A stretch of DNA of 64,000 nt from Geothrix paludis (GCF_022808815.1 NZ_JAKZLC010000006.1:62001-126000); one strand, 5' to 3'. Counted from the stretch's first letter, positions 15,223-41,285 are shown. Notes: generated from the sequence alone by a model not told the origin. Translations and numbers: made by a program.

Positions 15223-15341
15223 ATCAGCTCCTCTCGGAGACTGCCGTGTGTCCACAAGACCCGTCTAGTGCCCGGATTCAAACCGTCGGTTCTGCACCCT
15301 CCGCCTCGCGGCATCCCGCGGTTCCAGGCCGGGGGACGGAG

Positions 15342-16490
15342 ATGCGCCCCCGGGTCAAAGCCGCCCCGAAGGCCGCCCCGGCCCTCGCTCTGGGGGCCGC
15401 CCTTGGCGCGATCCTGCTGCTCAGCGCATGCAGGGCGCCGGGCATGAAGCTGCGGGAGCAGCCCTCCCGGCCGGAAACCACCCGGGTCGACGGGATGACG
15501 GTCTCCCTGCAGCCGCTGAACCTCACGGCCGTCCAGGCCCAGGAGCGGCCGGCCGGCGAGGCGCTCGCGCTGGAGGGCCTGCTCATGCAGAATCCCCCGG
15601 TCTACCTGGTCGGTCCCCAGGACATCCTGCTGGTCACCGTCTGGGATCACCCCGAGATCACCCTTCCCCTGGGTCAGTACCGGCAGGACACCGCCGCCGG
15701 CACCGTGGTGGATGAACATGGGGACCTGTTCTTCCCCTACGTCGGGAAGTTCCATGTCGCGGGCCTTTCCGTGGGCCAGGTCCGGGACAAGCTCGCCGCG
15801 CTCCTGAACAAGGTGCTGCAGAACCCGCAGGTGGACGTGAAGGTGATCGCCTTCCGATCACAGAAGGTCTATCTGGGCGGAGAGGTCCGGAACCCGGGCG
15901 TCTATCCCGTCAACGATGTGCCGCTCACCCTGACCGAGGCCCTGAACCGCGCCGGCGGGCTCCTCCCCACGGCCGACGACAGCCGCATCCTCCTCTCCCG
16001 GGGCCAGAAGACCTGGACCCTGAATTTCCAGGCCCTGCTTTCCCAGGGCAACCGGGTGAGCCAGGTCCTGCTGCAGAACGGGGATTCACTCCAGGTTCCG
16101 CACCTGAACGACGCCCCCATCTACATGATGGGCGAGCTCCTGCGGCCGGGGACGACCCCCCTGGTCCACGGCCAGCTCTCGCTGGCGAAGGCCATCCAGG
16201 ACTCTGGCGGCATCCAGGGGCAGACTGCGGACCCCAGGTGCATCTACGTGATCCGCCAGGGTTCGTCGCTCAATGCGGTGGATGTCTTCCACCTGGACGC
16301 GCGCAATCCGACGGCCATGATCCTCGCGGATCGGTTCCCGCTGCGGCCCCGGGACATCGTCTATGTGGACAAGGGCACGGTGGTGCGCTGGGGCCAGGTC
16401 GTGAACCTCGTCCTGCCGGCCTACAGCGGCCTGCTGCAGACCGCCGTCAGCGCCAAGTACCTGGGCTCCTCGTCGAACACAAGACCATGA
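15342..16490 (+). CDS. Polysaccharide export outer-membrane lipoprotein (Wza type)
   Basis: 382 residues. Signal peptide with lipobox LLLSAC gives a lipidated Cys30. The Poly_export domain starts at YLVGPQDILLVTVWDHPE and continues VDEHGDLFFPYVGKFHVAGL; SLBB repeats follow (VYLGGEVRNPGVYPV, IYMMGELLRPGTTPLVHG). The C terminus (VVNLVLPAYSGLLQTAVSAK) matches the Wza membrane-spanning helix. Wza forms the outer-membrane pore for capsule or exopolysaccharide. The start at 15342 is chosen because it begins the signal peptide. Its stop overlaps the next start (ATGA). Confidence 0.9.
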   Translation: MRPRVKAAPKAAPALALGAALGAILLLSACRAPGMKLREQPSRPETTRVDGMTVSLQPLNLTAVQAQERPAGEALALEGLLMQNPPVYLVGPQDILLVTVWDHPEITLPLGQYRQDTAAGTVVDEHGDLFFPYVGKFHVAGLSVGQVRDKLAALLNKVLQNPQVDVKVIAFRSQKVYLGGEVRNPGVYPVNDVPLTLTEALNRAGGLLPTADDSRILLSRGQKTWTLNFQALLSQGNRVSQVLLQNGDSLQVPHLNDAPIYMMGELLRPGTTPLVHGQLSLAKAIQDSGGIQGQTADPRCIYVIRQGSSLNAVDVFHLDARNPTAMILADRFPLRPRDIVYVDKGTVVRWGQVVNLVLPAYSGLLQTAVSAKYLGSSSNTRP

Positions 16491-16966
16491 AGACTGGTTG
16501 TACCCCCGCCATTCACCACATCCTCGTCATTTGTGAAGGCAACCACTGCCGGGGCCCCATGGCCGAGGCGATGCTGCGCGCCGCCCTGCCTCCCGACATC
16601 CAGGTGGCGTCCGCCGGACTGAACGCCCTGGAGGGCCTCTCGGTGGATCCCGAGGTGTCCCGGCTGATGGCGGAGGCGGGCCTGGATGTCTCCGGCCATA
16701 TGGGCCGGCAGCTGACCGAGGAGATGCTGCTGGCGGCGGACCTCGTCCTGGTGATGGACCTTCCCCAGAAAGCCTGGTGCGAAAAGATGACCCCCAGCCT
16801 CCTAGGCCGGACCTTCCTCCTGGGGCACTGGCGCCCTGAAGGGACCCGGGAGATCCAGGATCCCTTCCGCCAGGGATCCGAGGCTTTTCGCACTGCCTGT
16901 GAGAACATCCGCCTATCCGTGTCAGACTGGCTGCCCCGCTTGGCACATGAGCAGAGGTCTGCATGA
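16487..16966 (+). CDS. Low-molecular-weight protein-tyrosine phosphatase (Wzb type)
   Basis: 159 residues. The phosphate loop is CEGNHCRGP (Cys16 nucleophile, Arg22), with the general acid Asp125 in DPFRQG, both as in LMW-PTPs; the usual Ser of CRSP is Gly here. Wzb enzymes dephosphorylate the tyrosine-rich tail of the Wzc kinase and allow cycling of polymer export. It is coupled by four-base ATGA overlaps to the wza-like gene before and the wzc-like gene after, which strongly supports the assignment. Confidence 0.9.
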   Translation: MKTGCTPAIHHILVICEGNHCRGPMAEAMLRAALPPDIQVASAGLNALEGLSVDPEVSRLMAEAGLDVSGHMGRQLTEEMLLAADLVLVMDLPQKAWCEKMTPSLLGRTFLLGHWRPEGTREIQDPFRQGSEAFRTACENIRLSVSDWLPRLAHEQRSA

Positions 16967-19179
16967 ACAGCCCCCTCGCCACCGGCATTCGACCCTCCCG
17001 GCTGGATCCGGAGGAGCCCCGCGCTCGCCCCCTGAAGCGGCTGCACGAGCCCGAGGAGATGGGGATCGTCGAATGGCTCGCCAACCTCTGGGAGGGGAAG
17101 CACCTCATCCTCGCGGCGCTCGTCGTGTTCGTCGGGCTGGGTGGTCTGTACGTCTGGCAGGCGGCCCCGGTCTACCAGGTCCAGGCATTACTGCAGGTCC
17201 AGGCCAAGCGGACAGGCCCCTCGGACCCGGCCTTCGCGAAGATGGAGGGCCTGCTCTCCGCGCCTTCGGATACGCCGAGCGAGGTCGAGATCCTCCAGAG
17301 CAATCTGGTGCTGGGCCGGACGGTGGAGGCCCTCAGCCTCGACCTTCGCGCCCGCCCGAAGCTGTTCCCCGTCATTGGCGCCGCCCTGAACCGCGGGAAC
17401 CCCGAGGCCCCCAAGGTCGAGCTGGAGTCGTTCGACATGCCGGACGACCTGCGCGGAACGGTGTTCGGCCTCCGCGCCCTGGGAGACGGCGCGTTCCAGC
17501 TGGATTCCCCGAAGGGCGCCCCTCTGGGCAAGGGCGAGGTGGGCCAGCCCCTGTCGGTGTCGTACGTGGGGGAACCCCTGAAGCTGGTTGTCCGCTCGCT
17601 CCGGGCCAAGCCCGGGCAGGTCTTCACGGTCGAGCGGAGGCCGGTGACCGACGGGATCGCCTCGCTGCGCGCCAACCTCGACGTGGCGGAGAAGGGCAAG
17701 CTCACGAACGTGCTGGGGCTGACCTTCACCAGCACCAATCCGGCCCTCGGCGCGAAGATCCTGAACGAGATCATCGACCAGTACATCCACCACAAGGTCG
17801 AGGGGAAGAATTCCACGACCATGAAGACCCTGGAGATCCTCAAGGAGCAGCTGCCCCAGGTGAAGGCCAAGCTGGACGATTCCGAAAACCGGCTCAACCA
17901 GTTCCGGACCCGGACCGGATCCGTGGATCTCGCCCGCGAAGCAGACGCCTACCTCCAGCAGAGCACCAACCTCAAAACGCAGGTGTCCTCCCTCCAGCAG
18001 AGGCGCCAGGAACTTCTCCGGACCTACCGGGAGGACGCCGACGTGGTGGCCACCCTCGACAAGCAGATCACCCAGCTCAAAGCCGAGAACGGGCGGATCG
18101 AATCGAAGGTCCGCACCCTGCCGGGAGCCCAGCAGGAGGTGGTGCGCCTGTCCCGCGAAGTGGCGGTCAACACGGAGCTCTACACCGCGATCCTGAACAA
18201 CATCCAGCAGCTGCGGATCGCCAGCGCCGGCGAGGTGGGGGGCATCACGGTGGTGGATTCCGCCACGGCGGATCCCAAGCCCGTGGCGCCCCGGAAGACC
18301 CTGCTCATGGGGCTGTACACCTTCCTCGGCCTCCTGGTCGGCCTCGGCCTCGCCATCCTCCGCAAGGCCATCAATCCGCGCATCGAGGATCATCGCCTCG
18401 TCGAATCCAAGCTCGGGCTGCCGGTGCTGGTGACCATCCCCCACAGCAAGGCCCAGGAGGCCCATAGCCAGGCCATCCGGAACGGCGAGGACGGCCTGCA
18501 CCTGCTGGCGGCGCTCAATCCGGACGATCTGGCCACCGAGAGCCTCCGCAGCCTGCGCACCACCCTCCATTTCTCACGGAAGAACGCCTCCTGTCAGACG
18601 ATCATGATCACGGGCCCGTCGCCGAACATCGGCAAGTCCTTCGTGGCGGCGAATCTGGCCGCGGTGCTGGCCCGGTCCGGAAGCCGGGTGCTGGCGGTGG
18701 ACGCAGACCTCCGGAAGGGCGCCCTGCATCGCCAGTTCTGGTCGAAGGATCGCGCGGGCGGGCTGTCCGACGTGCTGGCCCGGACCGCGGAATGGGAGAC
18801 GGTGGTCCACAAGACCGCGGTGCCCCGGCTCTCCCTGATGATGTCCGGATCCATCCCCATGAACCCCTCCGAGCTTCTGATGGCGGAGACCTTCGACTCC
18901 TTCCTGGCCCAGGCCTCGAAGGCCTACGACTACGTGATCCTGGACGCCCCGCCGGTGCTGGCGGTCACGGATGCCATCATCATCGGTGCACGGGTCGACG
19001 GGGTGCTTCTGGTGACGAAGTACGGCTCGCATTCCCTGGACGAGATGCGGACCTGCCTGACCCAGCTCGAACGCCAGGACCTGCCGGTGATGGGATGCGT
19101 GTTCAATGACGTCCAGCCGCTCGGGGTCGCGGGGAACCACACGCACTACCGCTACGCCTACCACTACCGGTACGAGTGA
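16963..19179 (+). CDS. Polysaccharide copolymerase with BY-kinase domain (Wzc type)
   Basis: 738 residues. A first membrane helix (about 47-66) starts the Wzz domain; a long periplasmic coiled-coil part (about 280-420) follows and a second membrane helix lies near 450-470. The cytosolic kinase has Walker A GPSPNIGKS (551-559), Walker A' VLAVDADLR (576-584) and Walker B YVILDAP (657-663). The tail ends HTHYRYAYHYRYE with five Tyr, the autophosphorylation cluster. It regulates chain length and export with the phosphatase encoded immediately upstream. Confidence 0.93.
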   Translation: MNSPLATGIRPSRLDPEEPRARPLKRLHEPEEMGIVEWLANLWEGKHLILAALVVFVGLGGLYVWQAAPVYQVQALLQVQAKRTGPSDPAFAKMEGLLSAPSDTPSEVEILQSNLVLGRTVEALSLDLRARPKLFPVIGAALNRGNPEAPKVELESFDMPDDLRGTVFGLRALGDGAFQLDSPKGAPLGKGEVGQPLSVSYVGEPLKLVVRSLRAKPGQVFTVERRPVTDGIASLRANLDVAEKGKLTNVLGLTFTSTNPALGAKILNEIIDQYIHHKVEGKNSTTMKTLEILKEQLPQVKAKLDDSENRLNQFRTRTGSVDLAREADAYLQQSTNLKTQVSSLQQRRQELLRTYREDADVVATLDKQITQLKAENGRIESKVRTLPGAQQEVVRLSREVAVNTELYTAILNNIQQLRIASAGEVGGITVVDSATADPKPVAPRKTLLMGLYTFLGLLVGLGLAILRKAINPRIEDHRLVESKLGLPVLVTIPHSKAQEAHSQAIRNGEDGLHLLAALNPDDLATESLRSLRTTLHFSRKNASCQTIMITGPSPNIGKSFVAANLAAVLARSGSRVLAVDADLRKGALHRQFWSKDRAGGLSDVLARTAEWETVVHKTAVPRLSLMMSGSIPMNPSELLMAETFDSFLAQASKAYDYVILDAPPVLAVTDAIIIGARVDGVLLVTKYGSHSLDEMRTCLTQLERQDLPVMGCVFNDVQPLGVAGNHTHYRYAYHYRYE

Positions 19180-19200: not shown

Positions 19201-19314
19201 CTCGCCGCCAGAGGCCGCCGCGGGCCGCCGCGCGGCGGAGGTCCTCCGTGAACCAAGTTGCATGAATCAGGGCGCAATGGGTCATTCGAAGATTCCCCGT
19301 TCAGATGACCCATC

Positions 19315-21138
19315 TCATGAGTCTGATGGGGTCTTCGCCAGCGCTAGGCTATCGATGGCCTTTGCGAGAGTGGATAGCCGAAGGTGATCGAACAGGCCCG
19401 CGAGCTCGAGGTCCACGCCGAACGTGCTCTTGATCTGGATGAGCAGTCCAATGCCACTCATCGAGTCGCCCCCCAGGTCGAAGAAGTCATCCTCGACGCC
19501 GACCGTATCCCGCTTCAGCAGATCGCACCATATCGTCGCGAGGGCCTGCTCGGTCTGGGTGCGGGGCTTCCCACCTTTTTCGGCGCCAGCAGTCTCGCCG
19601 GTCCAGGGCGGCAGGGCCTTCCGGTCGACCTTTCCGTTTGGCGTGAGCGGGAGGGCATCCAGGAAGACGAAGTGGGCCGGAATCATGTATCCCGGAATCC
19701 GTTCCTTGAGGAACGACCGCAGCTCCGCGACATCCGGCCTACCGTCGTCACGGGCGACCACATACGCGAGGAGTTGCTTGACCCCGGACTCGTCCTCGCG
19801 CGCGAGGACCGCGCAGGACCATACCTTCGGTTGTGCCGCGAGGGCCGCTTCGATCTCGCCAAGCTCGACCCGGTAGCCGCGGATTTTGACCTGGTCGTCG
19901 ATCCGGCCCAGGTATTCCAGGATTCCATCCGCCCGGTACCTTGAGAGGTCTCCAGTCTTATACATGGTGGCGCCTGGAATGCCGCTGAAGGGGTCGGGCA
20001 GGAAACGCTCGGCCGTGAGTTCCGGCCGGTTCAGGTAACCGCTCGCCACGCCAGCACCACCAATGTAAAGCTCGCCCATCTCGCCGGGCGGAACCGGCCG
20101 CAGACTGGGATCGAGCACATACAGCGACGTGTTCGCGATCGGTCGCCCGATGGGCACAGGTCCGCTGGTGGGATCTTCCGGCCGCACTTCGTGAACACAG
20201 CAACCGACGACTGTCTCGGTAGGGCCATATTCGTTGATGATCCGCGTGTCAGGCGCCAGATCGCGCCAGAGTTGGAGGCTTTCGGCCAACAGATTCTCGC
20301 CACCAACCACGAAGACCCTCACCATGCCCGGCACATGGGTCGGGCTGACCTGCTTGTTCAGCAGTTCCAGGTGCGACGGCGTGATCTTGACGAGACCGTG
20401 GCCCCCGGCTCGCTGCAACGCTGTCACCAGATTCTGCGCGCCGGCATCCTCCGGCAGGAGCTCGACCGTACCGCCCGCCAGCAGCGGCGTGTACAGGCTG
20501 GTCACCGTGAGGTCGAACGACACGGAGGAATGAACCGGAACCCTGTGGCCGGGCCCGACGGCATAGGCCTGAATCGCCCACCACAAATAATTGACCAAGC
20601 CGCTATGAACGATCATCGCGCCTTTGGGTCGGCCGGTCGATCCAGAGGTGTACATGACATAGGCTAGATGGGACGGATGGGCGACGGGCGCAGGATTGTC
20701 GGGGGCTTGGTGTTCGATCAGCGGCCAGCCGCTGTCCAGGTAGATCACCTCGACGCTCAGTGACCCGAGCACCGGACGGCACTTCTCCTCGGTCAGCAGC
20801 AACCGCGTTCCGGCATCGCCGATCATGAAGGACAGCCGTTCCGGTGGGTAGGTCGGATCCAGAGGGACATAGGCACCGCCTGCTTTCCACACCCCAAACA
20901 ACGCCACGACCATCTCCGGGGAGCGCTCGAGACAGACCCCTACGAGCACGTTCGGACCCACGCCGCGCTCGCGGAGGTGGTGCGCCACCTTATTCGCGCG
21001 TTCATTCAATTCCCGGTAGCTGACCTGTCGCGCTCCGAAAGCGAGGGCGACGGCATCGGGGGTCCGGGCCGCCTGCTGCTCGAACAGCTCGTGTGTGCAA
21101 ACGGGTGGGAATTCGGCGCGCGTATGGTTGCTTGTCAT
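19315..21138 (-). CDS. Stand-alone NRPS adenylation-carrier didomain, Asn (or Asp) predicted
   Basis: 607 residues. Adenylation domain about 15-500: YTSGSTGRPKGA (A3), INEYGPTE (A5), YKTGDL (A7), GRIDDQVKIRGYRVEL (A8), PLTPNGKVDRKALP (A10). The carrier domain ends the protein, with LGGDS giving the phosphopantetheine Ser559. Aligning by eye to GrsA, the ten pocket residues read DLTKVGEVGK, nine of ten identical to the published Asn code and eight of ten to the Asp code. No condensation or thioesterase domain is present, so the aminoacyl thioester must be used by other proteins. It is translationally coupled (ATGA) to the acyl-CoA-dehydrogenase-like gene upstream. Confidence 0.88.
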   Translation of the reverse strand: MTSNHTRAEFPPVCTHELFEQQAARTPDAVALAFGARQVSYRELNERANKVAHHLRERGVGPNVLVGVCLERSPEMVVALFGVWKAGGAYVPLDPTYPPERLSFMIGDAGTRLLLTEEKCRPVLGSLSVEVIYLDSGWPLIEHQAPDNPAPVAHPSHLAYVMYTSGSTGRPKGAMIVHSGLVNYLWWAIQAYAVGPGHRVPVHSSVSFDLTVTSLYTPLLAGGTVELLPEDAGAQNLVTALQRAGGHGLVKITPSHLELLNKQVSPTHVPGMVRVFVVGGENLLAESLQLWRDLAPDTRIINEYGPTETVVGCCVHEVRPEDPTSGPVPIGRPIANTSLYVLDPSLRPVPPGEMGELYIGGAGVASGYLNRPELTAERFLPDPFSGIPGATMYKTGDLSRYRADGILEYLGRIDDQVKIRGYRVELGEIEAALAAQPKVWSCAVLAREDESGVKQLLAYVVARDDGRPDVAELRSFLKERIPGYMIPAHFVFLDALPLTPNGKVDRKALPPWTGETAGAEKGGKPRTQTEQALATIWCDLLKRDTVGVEDDFFDLGGDSMSGIGLLIQIKSTFGVDLELAGLFDHLRLSTLAKAIDSLALAKTPSDS

Positions 21139-22286
21139 AAGGACCGCCCCACGATTTCTTTCATGACCTCATTGGTGCCGCCATAAATTCGCTGTGCCCG
21201 GCTATCGCGCCACATGCGGGCGATCGGGTATTCCTCCATGTACCCGTATCCCCCATGAAGCTGGACGCACTCGTCGATGATTCGGCATTGGCAGTCGGTC
21301 AGCCAGTACTTGGCCATCGCCGCGCTCACCGGGTCCAGCCGCCCGGCGATGTGCTGTTGGATGCAGTTGTCCACGAACACACGCCCGATGCTAGCCTCGG
21401 TCTTGCATTCCGCCAGCTTGAACCGCGTGTTCTGCAGGTCGATGAGCGGGTTGCCGTAGATCCGCCGCTCCTTCGCGTAGCGTGTCGTCATTTCCACCGC
21501 GCTTTCCGCGGAGGCGACGGCGGCGAGCCCGATCGACAGCCGCTCGTAGGTGAGCTGCTCCATGAGTTGCAGTAGCCCGCGGCCTTCGCCGGCGCCAAGC
21601 AGGTTCCTGGCGGGGACCCGCACTCCGTCGAAGAACAGCTCGCACGTGTCCAGAGGGTGCCGACCGACCTTTTGCAGGATCTGGCCAATCCGGTAGCCGG
21701 GGAGGTTTTCGGTCTCGACGACCAGCAAGGACAGCGCCTTCATGCCGGTGGCCTTGGGGTCCGTCCGCACGGCGAGACACACGAGACCCGCATGCCATCC
21801 ATTGGTGATGAAGGTCTTGGAACCGTCGATGACGTAGTCATCGCCCTCCCTGCGGGCGAGGGTCCTGAGGGACGCCAGGTCGGACCCAGAGTCGGGTTCC
21901 GTCATCCCGATCGCACCGACGAGGGTTCCGTTGGCCATGCGGGGGAGCCATGCCCGTTTCTGCGCTTCGCTGCCATAGGCCAGAATGTAGTGGGCCACGA
22001 TGCTCTGGACCCCGGCGCCGAACGGAATCCCCGCGCGCGCCAACTCCTCCACGACGACGGCTTCATGCGCGAAAGTCCCGCCGCCCCCGCCGTAGGCTTC
22101 AGGCACGTCCGGCAGCAGCAATCCCGCTTGGCCGGCTTTGATCCACGCGCCGGAATCCGGGCGGCCCTGCGCCGCCCAGAGGGCCTGGTGCGGGACGAGG
22201 TCGTGCTCGACGAAGTGCCGGACCGTCCGCCGGAAGATCCGTGTATCGTCGGTCATCCACGGGGACTCGTAACCGAGTGCTGTCAT
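21135..22286 (-). CDS. Acyl-CoA-dehydrogenase-like flavoprotein, probable aminoacyl-carrier oxidase
   Basis: 383 residues, full length for the family, with GMTEPDSGSDLASL and FITNGWHAG (FAD site) and the C-terminal IYGGTNEVMKEIVGR. The Glu of the medium-chain type (YEGT) is Gly here; instead TYERLSIG supplies Glu248 at the position used by isovaleryl-CoA and prolyl-carrier dehydrogenases. Its partner gene, an adenylation-carrier protein, overlaps by ATGA. By analogy to prolyl-carrier oxidases (PltE type) it may desaturate the carrier-bound amino acid; that is inference. The start has TGAGGTGAT nine bases upstream. Confidence 0.85.
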   Translation of the reverse strand: MTALGYESPWMTDDTRIFRRTVRHFVEHDLVPHQALWAAQGRPDSGAWIKAGQAGLLLPDVPEAYGGGGGTFAHEAVVVEELARAGIPFGAGVQSIVAHYILAYGSEAQKRAWLPRMANGTLVGAIGMTEPDSGSDLASLRTLARREGDDYVIDGSKTFITNGWHAGLVCLAVRTDPKATGMKALSLLVVETENLPGYRIGQILQKVGRHPLDTCELFFDGVRVPARNLLGAGEGRGLLQLMEQLTYERLSIGLAAVASAESAVEMTTRYAKERRIYGNPLIDLQNTRFKLAECKTEASIGRVFVDNCIQQHIAGRLDPVSAAMAKYWLTDCQCRIIDECVQLHGGYGYMEEYPIARMWRDSRAQRIYGGTNEVMKEIVGRSL

Positions 22287-22305
22287 CGAATGGGATCACC
22301 TCAGA

Positions 22306-22333
22306 AGAATAAAGGTCATATCATGTTCGACAA
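22306..22333 (-). promoter_or_regulatory. Candidate promoter of the dehydrogenase-NRPS operon
   Basis: Minus strand: TTGTCG (22333-22328), 16 bases, TATTCT (22311-22306), then the ribosome site TGAGGTGAT before the ATG at 22286. The 208-bp gap 22287-22494 also serves the divergent GNAT gene, for which I see only the AGGTG ribosome site. Confidence 0.5.
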
Positions 22334-22494
22334 CGGATTGCTACAAGCTTGTCGACCGACGCTGGGCATCACCGGAAGCCCATGACGTGCGGGCTCCGTT
22401 CCTGACCTTTCGAGATGCCGCCTTCGCCCCGGAACAGCCACCCGGTGGAATCACCCCCGGAATCAACTCATTCATTCAAACCATCAGGTGTGGC

Positions 22495-23625
22495 ATGCAC
22501 ATTGAAATCACCCCCTATACGGCTGCACACGAAGAGGCCGTGCGGGCGTTCAACACACGACTCGCCGCGGCAAACCTCGACCCCAACCTGTATACCTTTC
22601 ATTTCACGGAATCTCATGTTCCCAAGTGGCTGCCCCGGCGGGAAGGATTCGATCTGTACCAGGAATATTTCGTGGCTGTCGATGAACAAGGAGGCATGCA
22701 CGGCGGTTACGGGTTGAAACATCAGCCCTTCCTGCTGAAGGGGGAATATCTGGTCATGCAGGATTACCAGAACCCGATTTCCGAAGGCATCGCCGACCGA
22801 ACCTACGCCATGGTCGGGGCGAAATTGTACTGGGATGCCCTTCGCAGCCATCCTCACATGTGGGGGCTGGGCATTGGAGGCCTCCATATTCCCATGGCGA
22901 AATTTCTGCTTTCAGCCGGATGGCAGACGACCCCGGTCCCGTTCTGGTTCAGGGTCGTTCATCCCAATGCATTCCTGCGTAACATCACCATCTTGCGGAA
23001 CACCCGCCTTCGGCGGACCGTCTTCGATGTCCTCAGGTTCAGTGGCCTGGGCTGGCTGGGCATCAAGACGCTCTTCGGCCTGAGACGCAGCCATCGTCCC
23101 TCGGCTGATGTGTCCTACGAGATTGTTCCCGAGTTCTCTGAATGGACCGACGCCATCTGGGATAGCTGTAAAAACGACTATTCACTGATCGCGGTGCGCG
23201 ATCACCAGATCTTGAATGCCCTGTACCCAGCCACCAACCCACGATTCATACGCCTGAAGGTCATGCGGGACCGACAGACCGTGGGCTGGGCGGTATTGCT
23301 CAATACTCAGATGTCCGGGCACAAGCAATTTGGTGATATGCGAGTGGGCACCCTGGTCGATTGCCTCGCCAAGCCCGCCGATGCCCGGGATGTCGTCGCC
23401 TGCTCCAGGAAGGTTCTCGAAGATGGCGGGTCAGACCTGGTCATCTCGAATCAGGCCAGCCAGGCTTGGTGCCTGGCGTTGCGAACCGCGGGCTTCATGG
23501 AAGGCCCCTCGAATTTCCCGTTTTTCATGTCCCCCAAGCTGGCTGCCCTGCTTCAACCCCTTGAGGAGAGCGCCGCAGGCTTCCACCTCAATCGCGGCGA
23601 CGGCGATGGACCTGTACATCTCTAG
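22495..23625 (+). CDS. GNAT-fold acyltransferase
   Basis: 376 residues from the ATG at 22495 (AGGTG five bases upstream). The N-terminal half reads like a GNAT domain (MHIEITPYTAAHEEAVRAF, EYFVAVDEQGGMHGGYGLK, LGIGGLHIPMAKFLLSAGWQ) and the C-terminal half has a second, weaker one (DMRVGTLVDCLAKPADARDV, WCLALRTAGFMEG). Tandem GNAT folds occur in Fem-like and aminoacyl-transferring enzymes. It is divergent from the carrier-protein operon, and I infer it moves the carrier-bound acyl group onto a sugar amine of the polysaccharide. Plain acetyl transfer is the alternative. Confidence 0.6.
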   Translation: MHIEITPYTAAHEEAVRAFNTRLAAANLDPNLYTFHFTESHVPKWLPRREGFDLYQEYFVAVDEQGGMHGGYGLKHQPFLLKGEYLVMQDYQNPISEGIADRTYAMVGAKLYWDALRSHPHMWGLGIGGLHIPMAKFLLSAGWQTTPVPFWFRVVHPNAFLRNITILRNTRLRRTVFDVLRFSGLGWLGIKTLFGLRRSHRPSADVSYEIVPEFSEWTDAIWDSCKNDYSLIAVRDHQILNALYPATNPRFIRLKVMRDRQTVGWAVLLNTQMSGHKQFGDMRVGTLVDCLAKPADARDVVACSRKVLEDGGSDLVISNQASQAWCLALRTAGFMEGPSNFPFFMSPKLAALLQPLEESAAGFHLNRGDGDGPVHL

Positions 23626-23676
23626 CATTGACGCTCGAGTCTTGGATCCCTCACCGAGCCACCCCGCACGGGGCCG

Positions 23677-23721: not shown

Positions 23722-24855
23722 TTATGGGTGGATGGGGGCCAGCTCCATGAACGCCAGGATGTCTGCTGTCACACGGCGGACGTCGTAGGTCTCCTCGGCG
23801 ATCCGCCGGCCTTCCGCCCCGAAGCGGGCGATCAAGCCCCGGTCCTTGGCCAGCTTCGCCATGGCCTCGGCGAGCGCGTCGCTGTTCCGCACCGGGACGA
23901 GGAAGCCGTTGCCTCCATCCCGGACGGTGGCCCGGCAGCCGGGGGCGTCCGTGGTGACGACGGCCCGCCCCATGGACATGGCCTCGAGCACGGATCGGGG
24001 CGTCCCCTCCCCGTAGGACGGCAGCACCAGGACGTGGGCGGCGGCCAGGGCCGGGCGGACATCCCCGGTCTCGCCGAGGTATTCCACGATGCCTTCGCGG
24101 GTCCAGGCCTCCACCTGCCCCGCCTTGATCGCGTTCGGATTGCTGTCCAGGGGACCCAGGATCTGGAAGCGTGCCCCCAGGTGCCGGCCCGAGAGGATCC
24201 GGCAGGCCTGGACGTACTCGTTCAGGCCCTTGTCTCGCAGCAGCCGTCCCACGAATAGGAAAGTCACGGATCCGAGGGGGAGCGGCGACTGGACATAGTG
24301 GTCCAGATCCACGCCGGAGCCGTTGACGATCCGCCAGGGGTGGCCCTCCGGCAGCATCCCTTCGTTCCGGAAGAAGGCGAGGTCGTCCTCGTTCTGGAAG
24401 AGGACTCCCCGGCACTGGCGGAGGGCCCGCCGGTAGAAGGCCTTCACCAGGCGCCGGACCGCCCGCTCGCGGAGTCCCGAGGGGGTGCCCTGGAGCGTAG
24501 TCCCCCGGCCGGTGATCATGGCAAAACGCTGGCGGACTCCCGCCTGGCGCGCGGCCAGGGTCCCGAAGGCCACGGCCTTCACCTCGTAGGCCAGGAGGGC
24601 TTCGAGGCGCAGGTGGCGGAACAGGTTTCGCAGGCGGACGAGGCTGGCCAGGTCCCGGAGGGGATTCAGGCCCGTGCGGTCGAGGGTGATGGGAACGTAG
24701 GTGGCGCCGAGCGCCGCCAGGCTCGCCTGGATCTCGGCGGTGCCGCCCGGGGCGATGCCGTAGACCTCGTGCCCCGCCCGGGCCATCTCCGAGATGAGGT
24801 GGCCGCGGAAGTTCACCAGGTCTCTCGCCTCGCCTCCCAGCACTCCGATCCGCAT
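23722..24855 (-). CDS. Glycosyltransferase family 4
   Basis: 377 residues in the GT-B fold. The N terminus (MRIGVLGGEARDLVNFRGHL) is the acceptor domain; the C-terminal domain has FLFVGRLLRDKGL and the E-x7-E motif in GEGTPRSVLEAMSMGRAVVT that binds the nucleotide sugar. It is the last gene of a three-gene unit behind the HexNAc dehydrogenase and 4-epimerase, with its ATG sharing one base with the epimerase stop (TGATG). A natural inference is that it adds the uronic acid (or HexNAc) made by those two enzymes. Confidence 0.88.
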   Translation of the reverse strand: MRIGVLGGEARDLVNFRGHLISEMARAGHEVYGIAPGGTAEIQASLAALGATYVPITLDRTGLNPLRDLASLVRLRNLFRHLRLEALLAYEVKAVAFGTLAARQAGVRQRFAMITGRGTTLQGTPSGLRERAVRRLVKAFYRRALRQCRGVLFQNEDDLAFFRNEGMLPEGHPWRIVNGSGVDLDHYVQSPLPLGSVTFLFVGRLLRDKGLNEYVQACRILSGRHLGARFQILGPLDSNPNAIKAGQVEAWTREGIVEYLGETGDVRPALAAAHVLVLPSYGEGTPRSVLEAMSMGRAVVTTDAPGCRATVRDGGNGFLVPVRNSDALAEAMAKLAKDRGLIARFGAEGRRIAEETYDVRRVTADILAFMELAPIHP

Positions 24856-25885
24856 CAGAGCCGGGCCGCCTGGGTCGCGAACCAGGGGACCAGCTCATCC
24901 AGGCCCTGGGCCACGGAATGGGTGGGCTCGTAGCCCAGGTGGGCCCGGATCTTGGAGAGGTCCGCCTGGGAATGCCGGATGTCACCTTCGCGGGGCGGAC
25001 CGTACAGGGGGTCGCGGCGCTCGAACCCGGGATGCACGGCGGCGAGGCGCTCCACGATCATCCAGTAGAGGTTCGTGAGGGACGTGGTGCCGCCGTAGGA
25101 GACGTTGAAGACCTCGCCCAGGGCGCTCTCGGGGGCCACGCTGGCCAGGAGGTTGGCCTGGACGGCGTTGGCCACGAAGCAGAAGTCCCGGCTGGTGTCG
25201 CCGTCGCCGTGGATGGTGCAGGTCTCTCCGTCGGCCAGGGCCTGGAGCCACTTGGGCATGACCGCCGCGTAGGGTCCGTTGGGATTCTGGCGGGGACCGA
25301 AGACGTTGAAATAGCGGAAGCCGAGGGTCTTGAATCCGTAGGTCCGGGCGAAGATGGCGGCGTACTGCTCGCCGATGACCTTGGTGAGGGCGTAGGGGGA
25401 AAGGGGATGCCCGGTGCGCTCCTCGACCTTCGGCAGGCCGGCGTCGTCCCCGTAGACGGAGCTGGAGGAGGCGTACGCCATCCGCCGGACGCCGGCGTCC
25501 CGGGCGGCCACGAGCATGTTGAGGAGGCCGTCCACGTTGGACTGGTGGCTGGCGATGGGATCCTTGATGGAGCGGGGCACGGAACCGAGCGCGGCCTGGT
25601 GGAGCACGACCTCGCTGGCTTCGCAGGCCTGCCGGCAGGTGTCCAGGTCCCGGGTGTCCCCTTCGATGAAGGTGAACCGCGCCCACGCCGCCGGGGAAAC
25701 CCCCTGGCGCACGTTCTCCAGGTTCCAGGGCTTCCCCGTGGAGAAGTTGTCGAGCCCGACCACGGTCTGGTCCAGCTCCAGGAGCTTCTGGAGGACGGAT
25801 GAGCCGATGAACCCGGCCACGCCGGTCACGAGCCACCGCTTCGGGTGGGCCCTGAGGTCCTCGCAGAGCGCCTGGTACAGGCTCA

Positions 25886-25889
<4 letters not shown>
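24855..25889 (-). CDS. UDP-N-acetylhexosamine(uronic acid) 4-epimerase (WbpP/TviC type)
   Basis: 344 residues of the extended SDR family. VTGVAGFIGSSVLQKLLEL is the NAD site, SSSSVYGDD and the YALTK catalytic pair follow, then FGPRQNPNGPYAAVMPKWL and GDGDTSRDFCFVANAVQANL. The whole chain tracks WbpP of Pseudomonas, including the N-terminal arm. These enzymes interconvert UDP-GlcNAc/UDP-GalNAc and, better, UDP-GlcNAcA/UDP-GalNAcA. It is coupled by ATGA to the dehydrogenase upstream, as in Vi-antigen loci where TviB and TviC act in sequence. Confidence 0.92.
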
Positions 25890-27160
<1,271 letters not shown>

Positions 27161-27254: not shown

Positions 27255-27386
27255 CTAATGGATTTTTGATAAACCCTTGGACAGCCAGGTCCCCTGTTCG
27301 TGGATCTCATGGATCCGGCCGGAGCGGTAGGCGTACGTCATGTCTGAGACGTCCAGGCGTTCCGGGGGGCGACGGACCGGTGTCAT
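27255..27386 (-). CDS. Possible 43-residue protein coupled to the deacetylase fusion gene
   Basis: A 43-codon frame starts with an ATG inside the stop of the preceding gene (ATGA, the same coupling seen throughout this locus) and ends TAG. It is charged and has YAYRSGRIHEIHEQGTW. I do not recognise it. It may be a real small protein or the remnant of a longer gene; composition alone cannot decide. The rest of the gap to 27161 is AT-rich upstream DNA of the dehydrogenase operon with no clear promoter. Confidence 0.3.
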   Translation of the reverse strand: MTPVRRPPERLDVSDMTYAYRSGRIHEIHEQGTWLSKGLSKIH

Positions 27387-29539
27387 CCACGTCCTCCCGC
27401 GGCGACTTCGTGGATGGGTGGGTGCGGCAGGCCGGCGCGAGTCCGGGCCGCCAGCTCGCCCATGGTCATGGGCGCGACGCCATAGCGGTCCCGGAGAGCC
27501 ACATGGCACCGCAGCAGCTCCTCGAGGTTGGCCAGGTTTTCCTGCAGCCGGGTTCCGAAATTGTGGGGGTGCCACCAGAGGTGGAAGCTCTCTCCGGCCC
27601 GGGCCGCCGCGGTCATGGCCTTCTTGATGCGCCGCAGACGCAGGCCCTCCAGGCGTTCCAGGGAGGGGTGGATCGGGCGGAGGAATCGGCTGGAGGGGCA
27701 GTTGACCAGGCCCGCCTCTTCGCCGGGTATGAACCCGTTGGAGCCCGAGAGATTGACATAGTGGTCCACCAGGCGCGCCACGCGCCGGGAGGCGGAGTTC
27801 CCTTCGTCCACGGACTCTCGGTACATCCAGGCCTTCTCGTTGCCGCGGAAGCAGGTGAACCCGGCCTCGGCGCAAACGGGCAGGTAGTCCGAGTTGTACT
27901 GGTTCCGCGGGAACACGAAGCTGACGGGGTGGACCGTGAGGCGCTGGATGGCGGCGATGGAAGCCTCCAGGTCTGCCCGGAACTGGGCCTTGGTCTGCCC
28001 CTTCTCGAGGCAGTAGAAATGGGAGAAGGTGTGGCTCCCGAGCTCCATGCCCTCGCAGTCGAGAATCTGGCGGATCATGGACAGCCCGAAATGGTAGGGG
28101 TCGGAGCGCTCGTCGGCTCCGATCTCATCCAGGGCCAGGTAGGGATTCAATCCCTCGCGGTCGTAGGTGGGTCGCAGGTCAGGTAAGTACTCGAGGAGCT
28201 CCTCGCGCCGCTCGAAGAGCGTCATGCCCACCGCGGCCCAGGTGGCTTTGATGCCATACCGCCTGAACAATGCAAGCATGGCCGGGATGGCTTCGCGTTC
28301 CCCCAGGATGTGGTCCCCGTAGGTCTGGATGGATTGCTTGTCGCGGAGGCCCCAGAGGAGCTCGAAGTCCAAGGAGATGACAAAGGCAGGTGCCTGCTTC
28401 GGCAGGAGCTTCCGGGTCGTCGCCGACGTACGGCGGACCAGGTCCTCCCACCGCTCGATGATGCGTTCCTGGTCGTAGCGGGTGACCATGTGCTCCCGGC
28501 CGATCGCACCCATGCGGTCGCGCGCGGGGGCATCCAGGGCCATCGCGGCCAGCATCTGGTTCGCCAGGGCAGCCGGATCGCGCGGGGGAACGATCCACCC
28601 AGAGCGGCCCGGGGCGACCAGCTCCCGAACCCCCCCGACATCCGTCGCCACGACAGGAAGGCCTGATGCCAGTGCCTCCATCACGGCGTTGGGAAGGCCT
28701 TCCCAGGCCGAAGAGAGCACGAAGGCATCCGCTGCCTTCATGAGCCGCGCCACGTCGGTGCGCTTCCCGAGGAAGCGTACGGCCTGTCCCACCCCGCGCC
28801 TCTCCGCGTCCGCCCGGAGGGCGTCGATCTGCTCACCCCCTCCCGCAATGGCCAGGCGGAACCGGGGGTTGGCCGCTGCGCACCGCGCCGCCGCCTCAAG
28901 CATGGTGGGGTAGTCCTTCGCCGGATTTAGGGTTCCGACGGCGAGCCACAGGAATGCCTCCGGGGCGACGCCGAGGTCGGTCCTCACCTCTTCCCGGGGA
29001 ACGGGTGAGGGGTAATCCGAGGTGAACATCCCATTCGGAATCACCAGGGTCTTCCTCGGCGTGAGGACCTTCCGCGAGACCATGTAATTGATTCCCGCCT
29101 GGGAATTCGAGACGGTCAGATCGACCAGCGGTTCCGTGATCCGGTAGACCTTTGCACGAAGCGAGGTCTTGGTGAAGGCGGTCCGGAGGGAGCCGATGAT
29201 GACCGGGACGCCCGCCAATCGACCGCACACGCGGCCGATGACGTCGGAATGGTAGCTGAAGCAGATCAGCACCGAAGGCTTCCAGGCGCGCAGCTGGCGG
29301 AGGAGCCGCAGCGTCATGCGAACCGGAATGAGAGGGTGGTCCTTGAGCGTCCGGTGAGGCTCGCACGTCAGCTGGCGGATGCCAGAGGCCTGAAGTTCCT
29401 CCTCGAAGTCATTGCCAGGAAAAAGAGAGAGGATGCCCACCTTCCAGCCCCTTCGGCGCAAGGATGTGGAGATTCGGACCAGTTGGGTTTCGGCCCCCCC
29501 GCGGCCCAATTGATCGGTGAGAAACACGATGTCGTACAT
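27383..29539 (-). CDS. Fusion: family-4 glycosyltransferase plus polysaccharide deacetylase
   Basis: 718 residues. Residues 1-370 are a GT4 enzyme (FLTDQLGRGGAETQLVRIST, VIPNGMFTSDYPSP, WEGLPNAVMEALASGLPVV with E-x7-E). Residues about 385-700 are a NodB-like deacetylase: FVISLDFELLWG holds the metal and base Asp pair, GSHTFSHFY gives the His-x3-His metal site, and FVFPRNQYNSDY and HLWWHPHNFG are later motifs. One chain could both add an N-acetylhexosamine and expose its amine. The ATG directly follows the stop of the upstream GT gene (TGAATG), so the genes are co-expressed. Confidence 0.88.
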   Translation of the reverse strand: MYDIVFLTDQLGRGGAETQLVRISTSLRRRGWKVGILSLFPGNDFEEELQASGIRQLTCEPHRTLKDHPLIPVRMTLRLLRQLRAWKPSVLICFSYHSDVIGRVCGRLAGVPVIIGSLRTAFTKTSLRAKVYRITEPLVDLTVSNSQAGINYMVSRKVLTPRKTLVIPNGMFTSDYPSPVPREEVRTDLGVAPEAFLWLAVGTLNPAKDYPTMLEAAARCAAANPRFRLAIAGGGEQIDALRADAERRGVGQAVRFLGKRTDVARLMKAADAFVLSSAWEGLPNAVMEALASGLPVVATDVGGVRELVAPGRSGWIVPPRDPAALANQMLAAMALDAPARDRMGAIGREHMVTRYDQERIIERWEDLVRRTSATTRKLLPKQAPAFVISLDFELLWGLRDKQSIQTYGDHILGEREAIPAMLALFRRYGIKATWAAVGMTLFERREELLEYLPDLRPTYDREGLNPYLALDEIGADERSDPYHFGLSMIRQILDCEGMELGSHTFSHFYCLEKGQTKAQFRADLEASIAAIQRLTVHPVSFVFPRNQYNSDYLPVCAEAGFTCFRGNEKAWMYRESVDEGNSASRRVARLVDHYVNLSGSNGFIPGEEAGLVNCPSSRFLRPIHPSLERLEGLRLRRIKKAMTAAARAGESFHLWWHPHNFGTRLQENLANLEELLRCHVALRDRYGVAPMTMGELAARTRAGLPHPPIHEVAAGGRG

Positions 29540-31482: not shown

Positions 31483-31718
31483 CGAGGGTGCTCCGGCCGG
31501 CTGGACGGGGAGGAGGTTTCTTGAGAAGAGGTCGAGCAAGGCCTTCTCGATATCCCGGGCCAGGGCTTGGTCGCTGAACCGTGTCGAGATCCGGGCCCGG
31601 CGATGTGGAGGTCGAACCGGTCCCGGTCCATCGCCCGCACCCACTGCGTCAGCCGCCGCTCGGCGACACCTGCCGCCAGGGCATTGATGAGGAACAGCAC
31701 ACGAGGTTTCCGAGTCAT
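31479..31718 (-). pseudogene. Collapsed family-4 glycosyltransferase (N- and C-terminal ends only)
   Basis: From the ATG at 31718, which overlaps the upstream stop (ATGA), the first 43 residues are a perfect GT4 start (RVLFLINALAAGVAERRLTQ, WVRAMDRDRFDLHIAG). Immediately after, near 31600, another frame continues ISTRFSDQALARDIEKALLD, typical of a GT4 C-terminal helix. About 290 residues, including the donor-binding E-x7-E domain, are missing. This is best explained by an internal deletion with a frame change. The residual 79-codon frame still ends in TGA overlapping the next ATG, so it may still pass ribosomes to the deacetylase gene. Confidence 0.75.
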
Positions 31719-32503
31719 TGGGCCATCGCCCTTCGTTCGCGCAGACGCCGCCGGGCGGTCCAGAGGGGCCCCATGATGCGGTGCGTCCAGACGTATTCCG
31801 AGAACCCTTGCCAACGGTCGGACAGAGAGAGCCTCCGCCCCGCGTAGTCCTGGAGCACGGAGGGGACATCCGTCAGACGGGACGCATAGGTGCGGAGGGA
31901 TTCGACAAACATCTCCAGCCGTTGCGGAGTCCAGTGGTTGTGGTGGTTGCACACGGTCCAGATACCCGCGGACCTGGGCTGGAAATCCCAAAGCTGCTGG
32001 GGTATCCAGGTGATGCCGTTGGCCTCGGTGAAAGGCCGGGGCCAGAGGCCGTCACTGATGCGGGTCAAGCCGAGGTCCGCGAGGATCGCCACAGTGGTGC
32101 GGTCGAAGGAATGGGAAGGCGCCACCCAGGCCTCGGCCCGGACGCCCTGCTGGGCGAAGATCGCCAGCCCGGATTTCAGCTTGGCCTCCTGCTCCGCCCG
32201 CGGAAGACCCGCGAACTCGCTCTGCGGAGTCAGCTTCAACATCCCGGGGTTCCTGTTCACGTAGACGTGCTGGTACCCGTGGATCGCGATGGTGTAGCCC
32301 ATGGCCTGCCAGCGGCGGACACGGGCCCAGAAGTCCGCCTGGGGGGGGTCGACCATCAGTTTGCGGTCACGGTTATCGGGCACCACCGCCAGGATGGGCT
32401 TCACTCCGAACTGGACCAGACGAGCCTCGATGGCCTCCCACATGGCCCAGTTCATGGTCGGGCAGATGTCGTCGAAACGCACCAGGTAGCGGCTATCGGT
32501 CAT
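31715..32503 (-). CDS. DUF2334-like polysaccharide deacetylase
   Basis: 262 residues with RYLVRFDDICPTMNW, HGYQHVY and APSHSFD as in NodB-like deacetylases of the DUF2334 type. It has no signal peptide, so it should act in the cytosol, on lipid-linked or nucleotide-linked sugars. The start at 32503 is firm: AAGGAG nine bases upstream. It is the first gene of the minus-strand operon 32503 to 27255 (deacetylase, GT remnant, deacetylase, GT, GT-deacetylase fusion). Confidence 0.82.
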   Translation of the reverse strand: MTDSRYLVRFDDICPTMNWAMWEAIEARLVQFGVKPILAVVPDNRDRKLMVDPPQADFWARVRRWQAMGYTIAIHGYQHVYVNRNPGMLKLTPQSEFAGLPRAEQEAKLKSGLAIFAQQGVRAEAWVAPSHSFDRTTVAILADLGLTRISDGLWPRPFTEANGITWIPQQLWDFQPRSAGIWTVCNHHNHWTPQRLEMFVESLRTYASRLTDVPSVLQDYAGRRLSLSDRWQGFSEYVWTHRIMGPLWTARRRLRERRAMAQ

Positions 32504-32624
32504 GCGGATCGTCTCCTTCACCACGGATTCGATGGCCAAAACGGAAGCGGCAATCGGTTGGGAAGGCTGCCGGTGTCCATAGAACAGGATTCTCCAACAA
32601 GACTTCATCTACAATACATTCGGA

Positions 32625-35659: not shown

Positions 35660-35767
35660 GAAAACCAGTGGAACTGGTCGGCTGGCTGAGCATTCGACGG
35701 GGTTCGTCACCCTGTCGAATCAGAATCTGAGATCCCTGAGACGCCCAATCTAGAGGTGGATTCCTAC

Positions 35768-37144
35768 ATGGTGGTGGTCGCATTGCGACGAGTCTGGGCC
35801 CGCCTTCCCCTGGCCGCGGCCAACCGGGGCGTGCTGAAGGCTGTGCTGACCGTCGGGTTCTTCGCGGTGGGCGTCAAGGTGGTGTCCGTCGTGAAGGAAT
35901 CGGTGGTCGCGGCCGCCTTCGGGACTTCCAACGCCTTCGACGCCTTCGTGATCGCCACCCTGGCGCCCTCGGTGGCCGTCGGCCTCATCTCCAATTCCTT
36001 GAATGCCGCCCTGATCCCCACCTACATCGATGTCCGCACCAAGGAGGGGCCCGCCTCGGCGGGACGGCTCTATGCCACGGTGCTGCTGCTCAATCTCGCG
36101 CTGCTGACAGTCCTCTCCCTGGCGGTGGCCCTGACCTCGCCCCGGTGGCTGCCCATCATCGCCTCGGGGTACTCACCCGAGAAGCTGGCCTTGGCTCAGC
36201 GGCTGGTCTACTGGTCCATGCCCATGGTGGTGGCGACGGGGTTGTCCACGACCTGGGGGGCGATCCTCAACGCGCACGAGAAGTTCGGCATCGTGGCCAT
36301 GGCCCCGGCACTGAATCCACTCGCGATCCTGGTTGCCCTGGCGGTGGCCTACAAGGTCTGGGGCATTGGCGCCCTGCTGGCCGGAACCCTCCTCGGAGCC
36401 GCCTTGGAAGCGGGGGTGGTCGGCGTCACCCTTTTCCGAAGGGGACACTCCCTCCTGCCCCACTGGCATGGGATGACCGGGCATGTCCAGGCTGTCCTCG
36501 CGCAGTATGGGGCCACCATCAGCGGGGCCTTCCTGATCACCTCTATGTCGCTGGTGGACCAGGGCATGGCTTCGATGCTCGGCCCCGGGAGCAACAGCGC
36601 CTTGAGCTACGGGATGAAGATCCCCACGGCCTTCGCGGGCCTGGGCATGGCGGCCTTGGGCACCGCCGTGCTGCCGCGATTCTCGCAGTTCGCCAGCGAG
36701 GAGAACTGGCTGGAATTCCGCCGGACCCTCTGGAAGTACCTTCTCATCGTGGGGGCCTTGAGCATCCTCTTGGCCTGCCTGCTTGCGGGAGGGTCCACCC
36801 TGATCACGACCATCCTCTACGAGCGGGGTCGGTTCTCGGCCCAAGATACCGGGCTCGTGTCCCGAATCCAGATGTTCTATCTGCTGCGCCTGCCGATCCC
36901 GATCACCGCCACCTTGCTGGTGCGGGCCCTCAATGCCATGCGCGCCAACCAGATCCTCGCCGCGATCGCGGTCCTGCAGGCGATCCTGAACGCGGTCCTT
37001 GACTGGGTCTTCATGCAGCGGATGGGAGCTCCGGGAATCGCGGCTTCATCCCTGGGGGTCTCCCTGGTGGCCTTCACCTGTGTCTCGGTGTCCGTCTGGT
37101 GGCTGCTAGGCAAGCGGTGCAAAGGAGCCTCGAGCCATGGCTGA
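35768..37144 (+). CDS. MurJ/MviN-type lipid-linked oligosaccharide flippase
   Basis: 458 residues with 12-14 membrane segments. VVSVVKESVVAAAFGTSNAFDAFVIA and LISNSLNAALIPTYIDV match the N-terminal lobe of MurJ; ALPRFSQFA-like (TAVLPRFSQFASEENWLEF) and ILYERGRFSAQDT are further family blocks. In this locus it replaces a Wzx flippase and should turn the repeat unit across the inner membrane. ATG 35768 was chosen over GTG 35756 because AGAGGTGG is well placed. The stop lies eight bases inside the next gene. Confidence 0.85.
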   Translation: MVVVALRRVWARLPLAAANRGVLKAVLTVGFFAVGVKVVSVVKESVVAAAFGTSNAFDAFVIATLAPSVAVGLISNSLNAALIPTYIDVRTKEGPASAGRLYATVLLLNLALLTVLSLAVALTSPRWLPIIASGYSPEKLALAQRLVYWSMPMVVATGLSTTWGAILNAHEKFGIVAMAPALNPLAILVALAVAYKVWGIGALLAGTLLGAALEAGVVGVTLFRRGHSLLPHWHGMTGHVQAVLAQYGATISGAFLITSMSLVDQGMASMLGPGSNSALSYGMKIPTAFAGLGMAALGTAVLPRFSQFASEENWLEFRRTLWKYLLIVGALSILLACLLAGGSTLITTILYERGRFSAQDTGLVSRIQMFYLLRLPIPITATLLVRALNAMRANQILAAIAVLQAILNAVLDWVFMQRMGAPGIAASSLGVSLVAFTCVSVSVWWLLGKRCKGASSHG

Positions 37145-40688: not shown

Positions 40689-41285
40689 TCAGACCCGCTC
40701 TGGAGCGAGGAGGCCGAGGGTGGCCAGGATCACCTTGAGGTTGCGCCAGACGCCTGCCTTCGCGGCATAGTCGAGGTTGATCCGGATCTTGTCGGGAAGG
40801 ATCGTCTCGATGTAGTGGGCCTCCGGATCCTCGAGACCGTCCAGAAGATCGCTTTCGTTCCGGTACGCGATCGAGGCCAGGTCGGTGATGCCCGGCCGGA
40901 GGTCCAGCACCCGCCGCTGGGTTTCGGTGTAGAGCGCCACGAACCGTGGGACTTCGGGCCGGGGGCCCACGAACCCCATGTCGCCCATGACCACGTTGAT
41001 CAATTGCGGGAGTTCGTCGATTTTCCAGCGCCGCAACCAGGCTCCCGTCCGTGTCACCCGGGGGTCTCCGCTCACGGTGAGGGGGCGTCCGATGCGATCC
41101 GCGTCCACGACCATCGTCCGAAATTTCCAGATCCGGAACGGGCGCCCCCCGCGACCCACCCGCACCTGCCGGTAGAAGACCGGGCGGCCATCCACGAGCC
41201 AGATGAGGGCCGCGATGAGGAGCAGCCCGGGAGATAGCAGGACCAGCCCGAGGATCGCGCCCAGGAAGTCGAAAAGCCGCGTCAT
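40689..41285 (-). CDS. Initiating sugar-phosphate transferase (PglC-type, monotopic)
   Basis: 198 residues, the short PglC form. A single N-terminal re-entrant helix (FDFLGAILGLVLLSPGLLLI) is followed by VFYRQVRVGRGGRPFRIWKFRTM, the GDPRVTRTGAWLRRWKIDELPQL block with the catalytic Asp-Glu, and DMGFVGPRPEVP. It places the first sugar phosphate on undecaprenyl phosphate and starts the repeat unit. Its ATG lies only five bases from the end of a MITE-like insertion, so its normal ribosome site and upstream coupling were probably changed. Confidence 0.92.
   Translation of the reverse strand: MTRLFDFLGAILGLVLLSPGLLLIAALIWLVDGRPVFYRQVRVGRGGRPFRIWKFRTMVVDADRIGRPLTVSGDPRVTRTGAWLRRWKIDELPQLINVVMGDMGFVGPRPEVPRFVALYTETQRRVLDLRPGITDLASIAYRNESDLLDGLEDPEAHYIETILPDKIRINLDYAAKAGVWRNLKVILATLGLLAPERV

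Follow-up and report, generated by a model that had tools for sequence, protein, structure and literature searches.

Three adjacent genes

The DNA analysed here, referred to as the window, is a stretch of 64,000 nucleotides from Geothrix paludis (GCF_022808815.1, NZ_JAKZLC010000006.1:62001-126000), and our subject is a group of three adjacent genes within it, P0001, P0002 and P0003 (Table 1). They encode a stand-alone nonribosomal peptide synthetase (NRPS) didomain made of an adenylation (A) and a peptidyl-carrier (PCP) domain, a flavoprotein resembling the acyl-CoA dehydrogenases (ACADs), and a protein remotely related to tandem GNAT acyltransferases. As an earlier reading of the same DNA had described (below, the sequence-only reading), the three genes stand between export and sugar genes, with Wza and Wzc on one side and the genes for a family 4 glycosyltransferase (GT4), TviC and TviB on the other. 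That reading had proposed, by analogy with pyrrole-forming prolyl-carrier systems, that an amino acid is desaturated on the carrier and then moved to a sugar amine by the GNAT protein. Our analysis points to asparagine as the amino acid and places P0003 in a family of apparently carrier-coupled transferases.

The adenylation-carrier didomain

P0001 contains the Pfam domains AMP-binding (E = 7e-88), AMP-binding_C and PP-binding, with its motifs and the carrier serine (GGDS) intact. Pfam finds no condensation (C), thioesterase (TE) or reductase domain in it, so that the protein is indeed the bare A-PCP didomain that had been described. Since neither C nor TE domain is present, release in trans is needed. 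A Dlt-like assignment was also considered and rejected, P0001 scoring 307 bits against 476 and 293 against 560 for the DltA models.

Alignment to GrsA at the ten specificity positions gives the A-domain code DLTKVGEVGK, which is of Asn type. The raw MAFFT alignment read DLTKVGEVCK, with a gap placed after the YGPTE motif, and a gap-free reading from that invariant motif puts G at the ninth position. As a control, the procedure recovered the known GrsA code, DAWTIAAICK, from the reference segment used. The classical Asn code is DLTKLGEVGK. In a survey of A-domain codes the closely similar DLTKIGEVGK stands in the Asp/Asn section and is also compatible with beta-cyanoalanine, which in albicidin is a residue made from Asn (PMC12283262), while for a pyoverdine synthetase the code DLTKIGHV has been assigned to Asp (PMC3207962). 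As a prediction from the code, activation of asparagine by P0001 is well supported; the code does not indicate proline and is not that of a Pro-specific A domain.

The dehydrogenase and its clade

All three Acyl-CoA_dh domains of Pfam are present in P0002, which is thus a complete ACAD-like protein, and its stop codon overlaps the start codon of P0001 (ATGA), an arrangement that indicates translational coupling. Glu248, in the sequence YERL, aligns with the catalytic Glu of human long-chain acyl-CoA dehydrogenase (LCAD), replaced by Gln in the 8w0z chain, and the position used by the medium-chain type is Gly in P0002 (YGGTNE). YERL is invariant in five aligned relatives. In both its domains and the position of its catalytic Glu the protein is therefore of the LCAD/isovaleryl-CoA dehydrogenase (IVD) type, and the coupled enzyme of the sequence-only reading, with Glu at the isovaleryl position, holds good. 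The prolyl analogy does not: besides the Asn-type code of P0001, the nearest solved relatives of P0002 are LCAD-like (352 bits for 2pg0 and 314 for human LCAD, against 144 for the prolyl-ACP dehydrogenase 4irn), and the prolyl-PCP dehydrogenase model NF045652 scores 185 bits, far below its equivalog cut-off of 650.

The gene neighbourhoods of P0002 relatives with at least 58% identity were examined. In a tree of 32 rows, P0002 and its close relatives form a single clade of nine (support 99/99). An A-carrier protein adjoins the ACAD in seven of these nine sampled members, which represent five lineages in two phyla, and the codes are all of Asn or Asp type (together, Asx); a branch present in 62% of bootstrap trees sets the seven apart from all other rows. 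The accompanying genes vary. In G012 and G065 the partner is an Asn-type A-PCP. The pair stands away from polysaccharide loci there, together with genes for a hexapeptide (NeuD/PglD-like) acyltransferase and for a phosphopantetheinyl transferase (PPTase), which in G012 adjoins the pair and is of Sfp type (Pfam-verified) and in G065 was judged by eye. G095 encodes an Asp-type A-FkbM-PCP-TE protein adjoining polysaccharide genes, and a Chloroflexota metagenome-assembled genome (MAG; L046) an Asp-type A-FkbM-PCP plus a C-A-PCP-TE, the second protein being read by eye. Release enzymes found with the pair elsewhere are thus of other kinds: a hexapeptide acyltransferase, a TE, a C-A-PCP-TE. From the nine-member clade and these neighbourhoods, pairing with Asx-type A-carrier proteins is a trait of the clade, served by varied release enzymes. 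Because the ACAD adjoins A-carrier proteins in so many of the members, oxidation on the carrier, as first suggested, is probable.

A remote tandem GNAT with carrier-associated relatives

P0003 is divergent from P0002, with 208 bp between them, and its homologues favour a start at ATG 22495 over the GTG at 22387 that had been taken as the beginning of the open reading frame (ORF). Neither alone nor as a family of nine does it match anything in Pfam, NCBIfam or the PDB, and no GNAT profile of Pfam or NCBIfam matches it directly. Nevertheless, profile-profile comparison bears out the earlier label of a divergent GNAT: against a distant protein set, A5, hhalign gives a Prob of 99.7 (E = 4e-26) over 326 columns, end to end, and ten of the 11 A5 members match PF13527 (GNAT), the best at 2e-10. 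At the CoA-diphosphate loop A5 keeps ERQRQGLGG, and the relatives of P0003 have sequences like ADRTYAMVGA; P0003 does not have the CoA-binding pattern Q/R-x-x-G-x-G/A. On this comparison P0003 is a tandem GNAT of remote relationship whose CoA loop is degenerate. A structure predicted without relatives had a pLDDT of 38 and was not used.

Relatives of P0003 lie at 25 loci in other Acidobacteriota genera, this one phylum having been sampled. Using a carrier-protein profile, a carrier was found within 4 kb of the relative in 19 of them, whereas none was found in the remaining 230 kb of those 25 loci or in 0.99 Mb of control loci. The training of the profile included the carriers of ten of the loci, so that ten count by construction and nine were found independently. 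With a dedicated carrier recurring across independent loci, carrier coupling of the family is well supported by gene neighbourhood, and it is because of this association that P0003 probably takes its group off a carrier.

The loading genes differ between loci. An acyl carrier protein (ACP), an AMP-ligase and a short-chain dehydrogenase/reductase adjoin the relatives in G380, G387 and G266; an ACP and FkbH do so in G203, G268, G236, G543, G611, G648, G777, G785, G677, G674 and G746, the FkbH label being Pfam-verified for G268 and otherwise given by similarity or by eye. An ACP and an A domain stand beside the relative in G645, and further loci have other loading genes. The G645 group (L212, 9575-14877) comprises the P0003 relative, the ACP, the A-domain protein, a formyltransferase-like protein and a luciferase-like flavin monooxygenase, and looks like another amino-acid loading module. 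DegT and CapD flank the relatives in G236 and G543. A protein of about 310 residues with weak DUF2334 similarity adjoins them in 11 of the 25 loci (e.g. L148:10585-11511); it has no confident Pfam match and no useful match to a solved structure. The transfer step of the sequence-only reading is therefore strengthened in one half, removal from the carrier, which these loci extend to other loading modules, while its other half, the sugar amine as acceptor, stays conjectural. We considered and rejected the idea that P0003 works exclusively with the ACAD/A-PCP pair, as its family occurs at 25 loci of other genera that do not have the pair.

Two genomes, G505 and G530, encode a polyketide synthase (PKS) whose last carrier domain is followed directly by a fused GNAT, more distantly related to P0003. 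In both (L186 and L187, respectively) a type I PKS ends in ketoreductase and ACP domains followed by a C-terminal tandem GNAT, perhaps a release domain that is not in Pfam.

Conservation and polysaccharide setting

Two other species of the genus, G004 and G008, have the three genes in identical order and at 94-98% identity (for P0001 the identity there was measured on the first 500 residues). Because they are kept so closely and in the same arrangement, they are not chance ORFs, and the trio, whose co-occurrence elsewhere the sequence-only reading had made a test of itself, does recur in other genomes. A search of 74 other genomes of the family found no P0003. In comparison with G008, the block 19243-27247, containing the module, GT4, TviC and TviB, is 89% identical and the adjoining Wza-Wzc genes 75%; the module, the GT4 gene and the TviC/TviB uronic-acid genes have therefore been kept as one unit. 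The three genes as a single exclusive system were rejected, since the ACAD/A-PCP pair and the GNAT family each occur with other partners.

The surrounding genes are a real Wza/Wzc/Wzx/Wzy polysaccharide locus, with an initiating transferase, flippase, polymerase, Wza and Wzc all present (Table 1).

Table 1. The three genes and neighbouring features, in window positions
Feature	Position	Strand	Basis
P0001, stand-alone NRPS A-PCP didomain, 607 residues	19315..21138	-	Pfam, NCBIfam
P0002, ACAD-like flavoprotein, 383 residues, Glu248 at LCAD/IVD position	21135..22286	-	Pfam, NCBIfam, alignment, clade tree
P0003, remote tandem-GNAT protein, proposed carrier-coupled acyltransferase	22495..23625	+	hhalign, carrier neighbourhoods
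Intergenic region common to the divergent ACAD and GNAT genes	22287..22494	.	direct reading
GT4 glycosyltransferase	23722..24855	-	Pfam
TviC/WbpP-like UDP-HexNAc(A) C4-epimerase	24855..25889	-	NF011728, E = 4e-123, 411 bits, below equivalog cut-off of 760
TviB/WbpO-like UDP-HexNAc C6-dehydrogenase	25886..27160	-	NF011729, E = 7e-136, 453 bits, below equivalog cut-off of 592
GT4 and polysaccharide deacetylase fusion, possible source of free sugar amine	27383..29539	-	Pfam
DUF2334 protein, deacetylase-like	31715..32608	-	PF10096, E = 1e-42
Initiating sugar-phosphate transferase (Bac_transf)	40689..41285	-	Pfam
DegT-family sugar aminotransferase, possible source of sugar amine	41625..42782	-	PF01041, E = 5e-125
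CapD/PglF-like nucleotide-sugar 4,6-dehydratase	49423..51435	-	PF02719, E = 5e-111
Export genes: Wza-like SLBB protein, low-molecular-weight phosphatase-like ORF (by eye), Wzc-like tyrosine autokinase	15246..19179	+	
MurJ/Wzx-like flippase, PGA_cap protein, Wzy_C polymerase/ligase	35756..39634	+	

Several other features of the locus were observed. The polysaccharide locus that holds the Asn-type A domain also encodes an asparagine-synthase-like protein (weak PF00733), at 33446-35548. Two adjoining DUF2334-type genes at 30718-32608, about 70% identical in DNA, suggest a tandem duplication. Flanking the polysaccharide genes in opposite orientation is a related pair of repeat-rich, pectate-lyase-like genes, recognised by eye (13923-15755, minus strand, and 42854-44113, plus strand); positions 43100-44029 share 68% DNA identity with the stretch of G004 equivalent to the first of them. 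Upstream of the window, at L037 9890-15503 (contig C6, 51890-57503, of the host genome, G000), a second acyl-activation group was read by eye, containing genes for a hexapeptide acyltransferase, an AMP-ligase, and asparagine-synthase-like and NAD-synthase-like proteins.

Proposed pathway and alternatives

We see about an even chance that the three genes form a module that decorates a Wzx/Wzy exopolysaccharide by a carrier-coupled route, asparaginyl-S-PCP being oxidised while still carrier-bound and P0003 then passing the group to a sugar amine. P0001 would activate L-asparagine with ATP, the substrate being predicted from the code, and load its own carrier domain, as is established for its family. 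P0002 would then oxidise the carrier-bound aminoacyl group, in the simplest case with Glu248 as the base for the alpha-proton and FAD as acceptor of the beta-hydride, to give 2,3-didehydro-asparaginyl-S-PCP or a species into which this collapses: 2-imino- or 2-oxo-succinamoyl, or, by attack of the side-chain amide, aminomaleimide. P0003 would use the carrier, not CoA, as its acyl donor, as its relatives' neighbourhoods and the domain fusions of its distant relatives suggest, and put the acyl group on a sugar amine, plausibly a 4-amino group made by CapD and DegT or one that the deacetylase-like proteins unmask. The domain make-up, the gene coupling, the clade-level association with Asx codes and the carrier association of the P0003 family are the parts of this scheme read from sequence.

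Several points weigh against it. The full set of three genes is known only from three species of a single genus, at near-identical loci, a scope that for the ACAD covers the matches listed in a pattern scan of 85,000 genomes. No carrier lies near six of the 25 P0003 relatives. P0002 could act on CoA thioesters, since two members of the ACAD clade (G127 and L047, the latter on a short contig) are without an A-PCP neighbour and an ACAD relative of 55% identity adjoins a CoA-transferase-like gene. Though the host genome has an NRPS-type carrier, the single PPTase found in it is of AcpS type (C2:225719); no Sfp-type PPTase was found there with a distant Sfp-type query, which a divergent enzyme could escape. 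Finally, both the sugar acceptor and the identity of the product are ones that we infer. A free 2,3-didehydro-aminoacyl thioester would be an unstable enamine and would tautomerise, and therefore the group transferred may be an imine, 2-oxosuccinamoyl or aminomaleimide.

Of the other explanations, the one with the most substantial claim, though we hold it unlikely, is that the ACAD/A-PCP pair makes a small diffusible Asn metabolite unrelated to the polysaccharide, for example an aminosuccinimide or aminomaleimide freed when the side-chain amide attacks the thioester; the pair would then be a chance insertion and P0003 would serve something else. In its favour, no polysaccharide locus surrounds the pairs of G012 and G065, which are accompanied by a hexapeptide acyltransferase (in G012 also by a PPTase), and the pairs of G095 and the Chloroflexota MAG belong to small NRPSs with FkbM and TE domains. 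In the genus of the window, however, the trio shares one divergent intergenic region and is kept with GT4 and TviC/TviB, the P0003 family is associated with carriers, and the G095 pair itself adjoins polysaccharide genes. Loading of proline, its oxidation to pyrrole-2-carboxyl on the carrier and transfer to a sugar, as in clorobiocin, would use identical enzyme classes, and the solved prolyl-ACP dehydrogenase is among the homologues of P0002, but the Asn-type code and the bit scores given above for NF045652 and 4irn leave this a very slender chance.

Plain aminoacylation, with Asn transferred unoxidised to the polysaccharide and the ACAD acting elsewhere, for example on a CoA ester, seems rather improbable. 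Amino-acid amides are known in bacterial polysaccharides and ACAD relatives with CoA-type neighbours exist, but the ATGA overlap ties ACAD to A-PCP, and members of the ACAD clade recur next to Asx-type A-PCPs in four more lineages, across two phyla. It is also improbable, and no more to be favoured, that P0003 is a conventional sugar-biosynthesis N-acetyltransferase that depends on CoA and whose carrier neighbourhoods reflect shared polysaccharide loci. The remote GNAT homology and the six relatives without a nearby carrier would suit such an enzyme; farther from the relatives, however, the 25 loci have no carrier, the CoA loop is degenerate, distant relatives are fused to PKSs, and the FkbH, AMP-ligase and A-domain modules adjoining the relatives are all of kinds that load a carrier.

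Taken further, the proposal of a decoration module would imply a polysaccharide bearing an Asn-derived didehydro, keto/imino or aminomaleimide group, an Asx-specific ACAD, and an unnamed carrier-dependent GNAT family served by interchangeable loading modules (FkbH and ACP; AMP-ligase, ACP and reductase; A domain and ACP). This fuller picture we offer tentatively, as somewhat short of an even chance.

Novelty and significance

Oxidations of carrier-bound amino acids are already known. In the open-access literature searched we found no paper on an Asx-carrier dehydrogenase, nothing relevant on the whole system or on carrier-FkbH in O-antigens, and no instance of an Asx code combined with an LCAD-type dehydrogenase and a P0003-type GNAT family. 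Oxidised Asx is very rare in nature; according to a 2014 review, dehydroaspartate is known only from phomopsin A (PMC4282715). The carrier-associated GNAT family is the most general part of the finding: a so far unannotated and testable family of putative acyltransferases, present in many Acidobacteriota genera with different acyl-loading genes. If the proposal is true, NRPS-type chemistry would be linked to surface polysaccharides through a plug-in system that decorates them with varied acyl groups, and substituents of the polymer would become predictable from sequence.

Comparison with known systems

The prolyl-carrier systems RedM-RedO-RedW, PltF-PltL-PltE and AnaB-C-D have in common with the window an A domain, a carrier and an ACAD-like flavoenzyme that oxidises a carrier-bound amino acid, an activity that is here predicted and with which the coupling of the genes agrees. 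The window differs from them in its Asn-type code, its LCAD-like ACAD, its unnamed GNAT-related transferase and its putative polymer acceptor. Long-chain and isovaleryl dehydrogenases (2pg0, human LCAD 8w0t, IVD 1ivh) have the architecture and catalytic Glu position of P0002, which, unlike them, is encoded with an A-PCP and has a predicted carrier-bound amino-acid substrate.

The decoration of sugars with carrier-bound acyl groups is itself known, from the tetronate of Vibrio cholerae O1, the pyrrole of clorobiocin, which is moved from carrier to sugar, and the side chain of butirosin. In V. cholerae O1 a dedicated carrier and an activating enzyme supply the acyl group for an amino sugar of the O-antigen (RfbK carrier, RfbL ligase, RfbN, RfbO) and likewise lie in a polysaccharide locus, but the group is tetronate and not an amino acid, and neither A-PCP nor ACAD is present. 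Dlt D-alanylation also activates an amino acid and loads it on a carrier for a cell-surface polymer; in the window, by contrast, the carrier is fused to the A domain and an oxidase is present. For P0003, the GNAT-fold proteins LuxI, HlyC and FeeM share the fold class and the acyl-carrier donor of its proposed role; they differ in acceptor and acyl group, and P0003 has no detectable Pfam or PDB match. The FkbH/ACP glyceryl loading modules adjoin relatives of P0003 in about eleven genomes and so share its transferase family; in place of their FkbH and ACP the window has an A-PCP and an ACAD.

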